Shown in pieces: positions 12,811-16,499 of a DNA stretch of 57,264 nt (positions are counted from its first letter, which is position 1; each line of letters starts with the position of its first letter). The stretch is from Bacillota bacterium (GTDB lineage: Bacteria > Bacillota_I > Bacilli_A > RF39 > UBA660): NCBI GenBank assembly GCA_015059155.1, contig SVAX01000005.1, forward strand, positions 1-57,264, given 5' to 3'. A model generated the notes under the pieces. It searched no databases. It had not been told where the DNA came from and saw nothing but the letters and a program-made list of their open reading frames with translations. A program made the position numbers and the translations under genes.

Positions 12811-12842
12811 AAAAAAATAGAATAAAATTTTATCCTATTTTT
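12811..12842 (-). terminator. Terminator overlapping the prepilin-like stop codon
   Basis: The minus strand forms a long A/T-rich stem (AAAAATAGGATAA with TTTATTCTATTTTT, one G-T pair) followed by T runs. The TAA stop of the prepilin-like gene lies in the 5' arm. Confidence 0.7.
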
Positions 12843-13768
12843 ATTGTTCTTTCTTGAGTAATAGAATTACCACTTGGATCTATAGCTTTATATTCAATTG
12901 TTGTTCCAGTAGAAGTTAATTCATCTACACTAACACTTGGATATTCTATATCACAAAATCCACTATTATCAGTACATATAACATCTTTTTTTATAAATTC
13001 TTCTAATTTACCTTCATCTATACCCTCAATAGATATAGAATTTTCTTCTGGAAAAATTATTGTTGGTACAACAGTATCCCCTATTACAACGCTTAAAGTT
13101 AACGCATTTGCATTTCCAGTATTATCTACTAAACTATAATTTATTTTATATATTCCAAATTTTGAAGTATCTATACTATCTACTATTTTATTATTTAATA
13201 AAATATATTGTTTTATTTTTGAATTTAATTCTTCATTTTCAGCAGTGGCTGATAATTCAACTTCATCATTTAAATTTAAAGGTAGTATATAAATTCCATT
13301 ATTAATAGCTATTTCTTTTTCATTATTTTTCAAAAGAATTTTAGGTGCAGCTGAAGTATCGTTTAGTTTAGATAACTTTAAAGTATATAAATAATTTCCT
13401 TCTATCATATAAGGATCTTCTATATTATTTTCTTCAGATTTTTTTTCTATACTTATAACTAAATTATCTGGAAAAGCTTCATTTGTATTTGGGTTAGTTA
13501 TATTTACATCTATTAAGCCTTCATATTTTAATTCTCCAACAGTAACATAAGTAGTATTAATATTTTTATCTTCATCTGGTAAATAACTAATATTTTTTAA
13601 AGAAAAGTCATAAGCAGCTGTTAAAATGGTATTTATTTGTTTTTTATATATTGTTTCTTTACTTTCTGTTATAATATTAGAAACTGTTGGAGTTATTATC
13701 ATAAATATAACAGCTAATATAATTAATACTCCTAATAATTCTACTAGTGTAAATCCTTGTTCTTTCAT
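12830..13768 (-). CDS. Prepilin-like protein with C-terminal Ig-like domain
   Basis: The N-terminus KEQGFTLVELLGVLIILAV is a type IV prepilin signal, cut after Gly5, with the conserved Glu five residues into the mature protein. The rest of the 312-residue protein is long for a pseudopilin. It ends in an Ig/HYR-like domain (about 230-312) with a Cys pair in CTDNSGFCDI and the IDPSGNSIT turn. It is probably a surface fibre subunit or adhesin. A ribosome binding site GAGGTG favours the ATG at 13768 over one at 13780. No prepilin peptidase or assembly ATPase is in the window. Confidence 0.8.
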   Translation of the reverse strand: MKEQGFTLVELLGVLIILAVIFMIITPTVSNIITESKETIYKKQINTILTAAYDFSLKNISYLPDEDKNINTTYVTVGELKYEGLIDVNITNPNTNEAFPDNLVISIEKKSEENNIEDPYMIEGNYLYTLKLSKLNDTSAAPKILLKNNEKEIAINNGIYILPLNLNDEVELSATAENEELNSKIKQYILLNNKIVDSIDTSKFGIYKINYSLVDNTGNANALTLSVVIGDTVVPTIIFPEENSISIEGIDEGKLEEFIKKDVICTDNSGFCDIEYPSVSVDELTSTGTTIEYKAIDPSGNSITQERTIKIG

Positions 13769-13776
13769 TTTACACC

Positions 13777-14322
13777 TCATTCTTTAGAAAAAACACTTAA
13801 AATTTTTGAAAAATTAAATAATATTTTATTGCTTTTTTTCATGGCATATCCTTTTTCTAAGGCTTTACCACCTATAGTAAGAGCTGAAATTATTCCCATT
13901 ACTATTAAAGTTATAATTAAACTATTAAAACTATAGTGCTCTACTATTTTTATAGCTATTACAGCACCTGTTGATCCTGATACTATACCACATATATCTC
14001 CTACAACATCATTGCAAAAACTAGAAACTTTATCTGCATTCTTTTTCAATTTTAGAGCTATTTTAGCTCCTTTAACTCTTTTAGTTACCATAGAATGAAA
14101 TTGTGCCTCATCAGCAGTAGCTACAGCAATACCCACCATATCAAACACAACGCCTATTAATATAAATACAAAAGTTAAAATTATTCCGATTATTATTCCT
14201 ACATTAGGTATAACTGTCTCTGAAATCAATGTAAATATTACTGATATTAAAAAACTAGAAACCACTATTTTTATTATCCAATTATAATCAATTATACTTT
14301 TTTTCTTATTTGTTTTTGTCAT
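13777..14322 (-). CDS. CorB/CNNM-like small membrane protein
   Basis: A 181-residue protein with about four transmembrane segments (18-40, 43-68, 108-128, 133-153). The central stretch VGIAVATADEAQFHSMVTKR and KNADKVSSFCNDVVGDICGI resembles proteins annotated as CorB-like or DUF21-related, but it lacks the CBS domains of full CNNM transporters. A transport role is therefore only a suggestion. It ends nine bases before the prepilin-like start and is probably cotranscribed with it. Confidence 0.55.
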   Translation of the reverse strand: MTKTNKKKSIIDYNWIIKIVVSSFLISVIFTLISETVIPNVGIIIGIILTFVFILIGVVFDMVGIAVATADEAQFHSMVTKRVKGAKIALKLKKNADKVSSFCNDVVGDICGIVSGSTGAVIAIKIVEHYSFNSLIITLIVMGIISALTIGGKALEKGYAMKKSNKILFNFSKILSVFSKE

Positions 14323-14343: not shown

Positions 14344-14592
14344 TTAATCAAAAATAATTGGTTCTTCATAATCTTCAATGTATGAAGAATTATCTTGAAT
14401 TTCATTATTATTGTGTTCTTTTTCAATATTATTTTGTACTACATCTTTTTGATTTTTTATACCTAATACTAATAATACAGTTAAAATTACTACAATGATA
14501 TAAAGTATTATTACTATAATATAATTTTTGTATTTATTTTCTTTATTTATGTCAGTAAATTCAGTATCAATATTATTATTTTTATCTTCCAT
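14344..14592 (-). CDS. Small single-pass membrane protein
   Basis: This 82-residue protein has an acidic, Asn-rich N-terminus, one transmembrane segment at about 26-47, and an acidic C-terminal tail ending EEPIIFD. I do not recognise it. The AGGTGAT ribosome binding site contains the GTG of a longer reading, so I start at the ATG at 14592. It is followed closely by the CorB-like and prepilin-like genes and is probably first in that operon. Confidence 0.6.
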   Translation of the reverse strand: MEDKNNNIDTEFTDINKENKYKNYIIVIILYIIVVILTVLLVLGIKNQKDVVQNNIEKEHNNNEIQDNSSYIEDYEEPIIFD

Positions 14593-14640
14593 TAATATCA
14601 CCTATTATAATTCTAACATAAAATATTATTTTTAACAACA

Positions 14641-14666
14641 AAAAAAGACTAATGAATAGTCTTTTT
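14641..14666 (-). terminator. Terminator of the large noncoding RNA
   Basis: AAAAAGACTA pairs with TAGTCTTTTT around a five-base loop, followed on the minus strand by an uninterrupted T run. It is placed to end the RNA that begins near 15253. Confidence 0.85.
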
Positions 14667-15253
14667 ATACTTAATAATGGCGTTAATATAATTAACTTTG
14701 CATCTTAGGTCAAGTTGGATTTCCCTAGATTTTACTTATCGTTACCAGTAAGCGGTTCCCCTTTAAAAAATCCAGTATATCGTCACCAAATATACTACTT
14801 GATTGCCACTTAGTATGCACTGCAATCTTATACTAACAACACCCTAGAAGATTTCCTCACCAAATCTTTATTATTAATTCTTTTTTGCAAATAATATTTC
14901 AAATTGCAACTCATATAAGTTCTAGCTATAAACTTACTAAATTGTTAACCAATCATCCCAATTATTCACGCAAGACAAGCTACACTACCCGTAACTTTCG
15001 CCACATGGTAGGTTTAATCCTATTTCGTATTCAGTCCGTCAGTTTGTTCGTATAGGCCAAACACAATAACAGGTCTCCACGAATGGTGGGTCATTTACAT
15101 ATGCCATTATGGATGCCCAACATTCTCATTTCCAGCACTCACCCCAGTTTGGGCAACTAAAGCAAGCACAAGAAGTTTCACAGGTATGCTCTTTAACGGA
15201 TTTTTAGCCCCGTCTTCATAATAAATCTCTGACTAGAATAATGTGCCATCGAT
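14645..15253 (-). ncRNA. Large folded noncoding RNA, class not identified
   Basis: This is the longest gene-free stretch. It has no long ORF on either strand and is visibly richer in G+C than its flanks. A consensus promoter lies at one end and a strong terminator at the other. Many helices can be drawn: a closing helix joins the ends (15245-15249 with 14677-14681); an H-type pseudoknot pairs 14801-14806 with 14822-14827 and 14810-14816 with 14830-14836; hairpins lie at 14774-14796 and 14848-14868; and a GAAA-capped hairpin at 14991-15004 sits inside a CTACC/GGTAG helix. It lacks the tmRNA tRNA-like end and the RNase P core. Size and style recall the ornate large RNAs (ROOL, GOLLD, OLE), but I cannot assign it from memory. 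Confidence 0.8.
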
Positions 15254-15260
15254 AAATATA

Positions 15261-15289
15261 ATTTTAGCAAATTTTAACATATTTGTCAA
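15261..15289 (-). promoter_or_regulatory. Promoter of the large noncoding RNA
   Basis: -35 TTGACA (15284-15289), a 17-base spacer and -10 TAAAAT (15261-15266) on the minus strand. Transcription should start near 15253, at the first base of the folded region. Confidence 0.85.
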
Positions 15290-15332: not shown

Positions 15333-16499
15333 TTAATCACGACTAAAAATATCACGAGTATAAATTTTTTGTTTAACATCATCTAATAAATTATCATTTC
15401 TATTAACTATTATTACATCACTTAAAGCTTTAAACTCATTTATATCTTTTATTACTTTACTATTAAAAAAATGTGTTTCTTTTAAAGTTGGTTCATAAAC
15501 AATTATATTTATTCCTTTTGCTTTTATTCTCTTCATAACTCCTTGAATAGCGCTTGCTCTAAAATTATCAGAATTGCTTTTCATAGTTAATCTATAAACC
15601 CCAACTGTATTAGGATTCTTATCAATAATTGACTGAGCAATATGATCTTTTCTAGTACTGTTACTTTGAACAATAGCACTAATTAAATTCTCTGGAACAT
15701 CTTTATAATTAGCTTTTAATTGTTTTGTATCTTTTGGTAAACAATATCCTCCATAACCAAATGATGGATTATTATAATGATCTCCTATTCTTGGATCTAG
15801 ACATACACCTTCTATAATATCCTTGGTATTTAAACCTTTTAATTCTGCATATGTATCTAATTCGTTAAAATATGATACTCTTAAAGCAAGATATGTGTTA
15901 GCAAATAATTTAACAGCCTCTGCTTCAGTAGGATTCATATATTTTATTACAACATCATCCTTTAAACAAGACTCTTTCAATAAATTAGCAAATTCTTCTG
16001 CTCTTTTGCTTTTTTCTCCAACAATTATTCTAGAAGGATATAAATTATCATATAAAGCTTTTCCTTCTCTTAAAAACTCAGGAGAAAACATAATATTATC
16101 AATATTATATTTATTTTTTATATTTTCTATAAAACCAACTGGTATTGTTGATTTGACAACCATTGTTGTATCAATATTCATTGATATCACTTTTTCAATT
16201 ACATCTTCAACACTTGATGTATCAAAGTAATTTTTTTCTTCATCATAATTTGTTGGTGTGCTTATTATTATAAATTTTGCACCATCAAAAGCTTCTTTAT
16301 AATCTAAAGTTGCTTTTAAATTCAAATTTTTAGTTTTAAAATATTCTTCTATTTCATTATCTTTTATAGGTGAAATTCTATCATTAATCATCTTTACTTT
16401 TTCTGGTATAACATCTAAAGCAACTACTTCATTTTTTTGACTCAATAAAGTTGCTAAAGATAGTCCAACATAACCTGTTCCTGCTACTGCTATTTTCAT
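15333..16499 (-). CDS. ugd: UDP-glucose 6-dehydrogenase
   Basis: This enzyme oxidises UDP-glucose to UDP-glucuronate with two NAD+. The Rossmann motif [16 protein letters not shown] opens the protein. The catalytic cysteine is Cys253 in [15 protein letters not shown], and the dimer region carries [21 protein letters not shown]. At 388 residues it matches the shorter Gram-positive form. It is the last gene of the polysaccharide operon. With the epimerase at 30996-31961 it should supply UDP-GlcA and probably UDP-GalA. Confidence 0.95.

Follow-up and report, generated by a model that had tools for sequence, protein, structure and literature searches.

The role and partners of OLE RNA (Rfam RF01071) have been described in several studies (PMC12265935, PMC11332333, PMC9723947, PMC12286853), with membrane location, dimerisation and stress phenotypes known only for the OLE RNAs of Halalkalibacterium halodurans and Clostridium (PMC12265935, PMC12286853). 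The RNA is nearly always accompanied by OLE-associated membrane protein A, OapA (PMC11332333). Mapped contacts place OapA at P2 and P4a and bS21 at P6, while OapC binds the k-turn next to P5; the OLE dimer resolved by cryo-EM lies in the 5' region (PMC12265935, PMC9723947, PMC12286853). In H. halodurans the GGUAAC loop of P13 is part of the OapB site, and MpfA has been proposed as an OLE substitute, an exchange between OLE and MpfA having been published. A survey from 2024 found OLE in the RF39 and TANB77 gut clades, where OapB and OapC are largely missing and shortened variants of the RNA occur; the presence of OLE in gut clades that lack these two proteins is thus already published (PMC11332333). 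What OLE does chemically has been a question for almost 20 years.

Here we describe an OLE locus in a stretch of 57,264 nucleotides, hereafter the window, from a gut bacterium of the Bacillota (GTDB lineage RF39; UBA660). An earlier note, made from the letters of the window alone, had singled out positions 14641-15289 as an ornate noncoding RNA, to be read as a divergent form within an ornate class, OLE being among the candidates named, or else as a new class.

Results

The window carries a full-length OLE RNA

A scan of the window with 4227 Rfam families returned a single above-threshold match, OLE. The RF01071 model aligned from position 1 to 616, untruncated, with a score of 373.7 bits and an E-value of 2.8e-106 against a gathering cut-off of 50 bits, placing the OLE RNA gene at 14661..15265 on the minus strand. 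The interval first proposed therefore contained a real feature, but its exact ends did not hold, the RNA running closer to 15265-14661. In the window copy, 145 of the 153 drawable Rfam pairs are standard pairs, and conserved OLE stretches such as UAUUCUAGU, GGAAA, ACUAAGUGG and GACCUAAG are intact or near-intact. The hairpins P7 and P8 are both retained, with covariation, and the RNA hence differs from variant 2, the RF39 type, which is recognised by their absence. Neither ROOL nor GOLLD was matched in the Rfam scan of the window, and ARAGORN detected no tRNA or tmRNA in it.

The general properties of the RNA had been read correctly. The longest sense reading frame within it encodes 31 amino acids, below the mean of 40 obtained after base shuffling, and the longest antisense frame encodes 56, in agreement with the claim that no ORF is present. 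Its G+C content of 35.4% exceeds that of the flanks (24.5% and 22.9%), and only 0.35% of the 605-nt stretches in the window reach this value. The predicted folding energy is -164.5 kcal/mol, with a z-score of -4.4 relative to shuffled sequences. The size of the RNA, its isolated G+C peak and its own promoter and terminator could also be taken as signs of an ornate RNA that belongs to a new class, without kinship to those already known; given the full-length OLE match and the adjoining gene for the OLE partner OapA, we regard the probability of this as vanishingly small. The window RNA is a full-length, ordinary member of OLE and not a new class. That the feature is real and its class already known is well supported, and the earlier note had itself foreseen that a strong Rfam match would remove the novelty. 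What stood of its proposal is the ornate class, together with the terminal helix and the autonomous transcription unit described below.

The OLE secondary structure is maintained by compensatory change

We aligned 44 OLE RNAs from the family of the window's bacterium, which share 59-97% pairwise identity, and scored them against the Rfam pairs, which derive from other species. Across these relatives 89.3% of cells were paired, compared with 39-45% in controls in which the partners had been slid by one to three columns, and compensatory changes altering both sides were found in 109 of the 153 Rfam pairs. Double-change cells numbered 956 versus 284 in shuffles, the covariation score was 0.421 versus 0.180, and none of 500 shuffles matched the observed value for any of five measures. 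This confirmed that the OLE consensus secondary structure is maintained in the family. The helix previously drawn between the two ends of the RNA corresponds to the terminal helix P1 of OLE, in which UGGC/GCCA is replaced by the compensatory combination UGGU/ACCA in four relatives.

An H-type pseudoknot that had been proposed at 14801-14836 did not survive comparison with the same 44 relatives, its stems being also inspected by eye in extra loci located via OapA. In stem 1, one pair forms in just six of the 44. Stem 2 pairs frequently, but its bases are near-invariant, and the changes on its 5' side (GGUU, GACU and GGCU) stand unmatched opposite AAUC.

The same data bear on whether the RNA is a non-functional OLE relic, decaying in a shrinking genome. 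Such a reading could draw on the loss of both OLE and OapA from 31 of 98 family genomes, on the absence of OapC from all 98 and the apparent absence of OapB, and on the shortening of the RNA in part of the family. We nevertheless consider it very improbable, as the 145 intact pairs of the window copy, the strong compensatory change among relatives, the promoter retained throughout the genus and the joint rather than piecemeal loss of OLE and OapA all speak for a maintained RNA.

OLE has its own transcription signals downstream of a polysaccharide operon

In a promoter scan, the top promoter-like site of the region was TTGACA-17-TAAAAT, reading from 15289 to 15261 on the minus strand, with 11 of 12 consensus bases and a TG that extends the -10 element. 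This predicted promoter (15261..15289) had been noticed before, and congeners for which upstream sequence is available likewise carry TTGACA and an A+T-rich -10 at about the same position before OLE. At the other end of the RNA lies a predicted AT-rich intrinsic terminator, AAAAAGACTA-TTCA-TTAGTC-TTTTTTT, at about 14639..14666 on the minus strand, visible in the sequence and drawn by RNAfold. It had been called strong; a terminator is supported, both by the RNAfold structure and by congeners, but its stem holds only two G-C pairs and stayed under the threshold of the terminator scan, which did not list it. Most congeners have a stem and T-run of differing sequence at the equivalent place after OLE. 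Because congeners keep TTGACA before OLE and mostly have terminators of differing sequence after it, there is good evidence that OLE would form an autonomous transcription unit across the genus, as the earlier note had supposed for the window.

Immediately upstream, a UDP-glucose dehydrogenase gene (15333-16499) ends the polysaccharide operon, confirming the position ascribed to the RNA directly downstream of it. This gene, together with a glycosyltransferase-like gene upstream of OLE in several congeners, could be taken to mean that OLE serves the synthesis of capsule or cell-wall polysaccharide. We think this unlikely, since OLE has its own promoter, the RNA follows other genes outside the genus (such as a lipase-like gene or recG), and several congeners have ole and oapA at separate places.

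Downstream of OLE, and on the same strand, four genes follow, which encode in order an 81-aa membrane protein, a CNNM protein, a pilin-like protein and one with a CotH domain. The CNNM protein, encoded at 13780..14322 (minus), is 181 aa long with CNNM (DUF21) as its sole domain (PF01595, 34.5 bits, cut-off 28.4), and judged by this domain it is OapA. Its close public relatives are MAG proteins, from isolates named Lapin- (probably rabbit gut) and others from ruminants or elsewhere. Between ole and oapA, at 14344..14589 (minus), lies the gene for the small protein, which has 81 aa from its ATG, a single predicted membrane helix and an acidic tail. Homologues lie immediately upstream of oapA in 12 of 15 OapA-bearing congeners, whether ole is nearby or not, and a search outside the genus yielded no convincing homologue; we therefore predict this protein as a candidate neighbour of OapA. 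As a partner of OLE it was rejected, being genus-specific and travelling with oapA rather than with ole. The pilin-like protein (12830-13780, minus) combines an N_methyl motif with a surface Ig-like domain, and in most congeners, too, oapA is followed by a pilin-like gene.

OLE and OapA co-occur across the family

Among 98 genomes of the family, 63 contain both OLE and OapA, 31 contain neither, two contain OLE only and two OapA only. The p-value for co-occurrence is 8e-21, which is indicative, related genomes being non-independent. In three of the four discordant genomes (G033, G122 and G124) the expected place of the missing partner falls at a contig end. The fourth, G072 (93% complete), carries a full OLE (G072:C19:42076-42678) with no OapA detected nearby or elsewhere in the genome. 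Linkage of ole and oapA is not obligatory, since both genes are present but sit on separate contigs or several kilobases apart in congeners G001, G003, G010, G012 and G018.

Across 296 sampled genomes of the class, 26 of the 38 that belong to the window's family carry OLE, and none of the remainder does. Deletions in OLE considered for G001 and G006 were dismissed, the short copies being contig ends. Genome G063, a MAG with 4% contamination, carries an intact OLE and, elsewhere, a second copy cut by a contig end (G063:C3:69955-70423; L211:1456-1924, plus strand), which could derive from contamination.

The family lacks OapC and MpfA and apparently OapB

The host genome is 70% complete, so that an absence from it alone means little; the negatives given here rest on searches of the family. 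No L7Ae-family protein (PF01248) was detected in any of the 98 genomes, with seven of 14 controls positive, and hence no OapC. Similarly, the CorC_HlyC domain was found in none of the 98, with the positive controls detected, and hence no MpfA. As MpfA is missing also in the 31 genomes without OLE and OapA, it is not a simple replacement for OLE in this family, and the published exchange does not account for the losses.

OapB likewise appears to be absent from the family, a conclusion reached indirectly from the KOW profile and gene order. Of 58 genomes searched with this profile, most have two KOW proteins. Their frames, roughly 105 and 180 aa long, are of the length expected for L24 and NusG, and on that basis we take them to be these two proteins. 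IF1 loci were inspected in four genomes, with map in view in three; in these three (congener G011 and two other family members) only a few bases separate map from infA, and no KOW gene intervenes. By the gene order of B. subtilis, this is where OapB would be expected.

The RNA regions associated with these proteins are nonetheless conserved. The k-turn region before P5 is retained in nearly all of the 44 relatives and the P13 GGUAAC loop in 41, which would be odd were OapB the sole ligand of the loop. With OapB apparently missing and OapC not found, the persistence of both elements points to other reasons for their conservation.

A 380-nt mini-OLE lies directly before oapA in two genera

About a third of the OLE RNAs in the family have a shorter form of ~470-535 nt, one inspected copy of which lacks the P7/P8 stretch. 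A still shorter form, here called mini-OLE, was found in three genomes of two genera: at G073:C2:57162-57542 (L222:1501-1881, plus strand), G382:C9:18515-18892 (L221:1501-1878, minus) and G300:C5:12168-12545 (L215:1669-2046, plus). These RNAs measure 378-381 nt, score 134-139 bits and lack P5-P8, with helix numbers assigned by the order of helices in the Rfam model. The G073 copy is missing about 200 positions of the model (74-277, spanning P5 to P8) but retains P4a, a portion of P9 and the 3' domain (domain 2), and the other two copies align to it almost base-for-base. In all three, oapA starts about 5 nt after the model end and no more than about 7 nt beyond the match itself, whereas the upstream genes differ, being lipase-like in two and recG in one as read from their translations. 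With P4a retained and P5-P8 gone, mini-OLE still has a mapped site for OapA but neither that for OapC nor that for bS21. The OLE literature searched gave us no account of such a form, and it is shorter than the OLE variants that we found described.

These forms would fit a stepwise dismantling of OLE within the family that exposes its core, leading from the full RNA to one without P7/P8, to a 380-nt RNA without P5-P8 set before oapA, and finally to the loss of both genes. We put this order forward tentatively, as somewhat more doubtful than not. It is possible, but a little less probable still, that OLE in the family as a whole has been reduced to an OapA-binding scaffold with P4a and domain 2 as its core and P5-P8, the region of the OapC and bS21 sites, optional. 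The mini-OLEs directly before oapA and the family-wide absence of OapC argue for a scaffold of this kind. Against it, the window RNA retains P5-P8 with covariation, which indicates that the region is still under selection here, and the three mini-OLEs are closely related in their RNA and may represent one event.

Discussion

Taken together, our results very probably describe a full-length OLE RNA whose transcription starts at a promoter and stops at a terminator of its own and which, by homology, would act in stress adaptation as a membrane ribonucleoprotein bound by OapA. By homology with H. halodurans and with the Clostridium structures, the transcript would dimerise, and a pair of OapA molecules, the product of the downstream gene, would tether it to the cell membrane. 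The OLE-OapA particle may then help the cell adapt to metal ions, energy source, cold and alcohol, a tuning of stress responses and metal homeostasis that we carry over from H. halodurans, a distant alkaliphile. In this host OLE would work with OapA, without OapC and apparently without OapB, and with no MpfA transporter in reserve.

A complete OLE with oapA in a gut bacterium of small genome agrees with the 2024 survey, and OLE can evidently persist without OapC and, it appears, without OapB. To what is known of OLE our analysis makes small additions: the separation of ole from oapA in some congeners, the genus-specific protein encoded before oapA, and mini-OLE. The family may serve as a minimal system in which to locate the working part of the RNA, given that OLE and OapA persist or disappear jointly, that OapC and MpfA are absent, and that a natural 380-nt version exists. 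If mini-OLE is functional, OLE could do without the part of the RNA seen by cryo-EM, which forms the dimer and binds OapC and bS21, and its conserved task would fall to domain 2 together with OapA.

Among known systems, ROOL and GOLLD share only size and ornate folding with the window RNA, and ROOL, at least, is largely phage-borne (PMC12286853). The OLE gene of H. halodurans belongs to a polycistronic transcript (PMC12265935), in contrast to the window OLE with its own predicted promoter and terminator. OLE variants 1 and 2 of TANB77 and RF39 (PMC11332333) resemble the window RNA in occurring in gut hosts with reduced genomes that lack OapC and, apparently in the case of the window host, OapB, but variant 2 of RF39 has lost P7 and P8 (PMC11332333), which the window RNA retains. 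Mini-OLE goes beyond these published variants in the loss of P5-P8, and its 134-139 bits fall far under the lowest class of the survey, which started at 235 bits with a different model (PMC11332333). The closest system is OLE RF01071 itself: although the host here is a gut bacterium of ~1 Mb without OapC and MpfA and apparently without OapB, the window RNA is like it in length, in all Rfam helices, in the conserved stretches and in the presence of oapA downstream.
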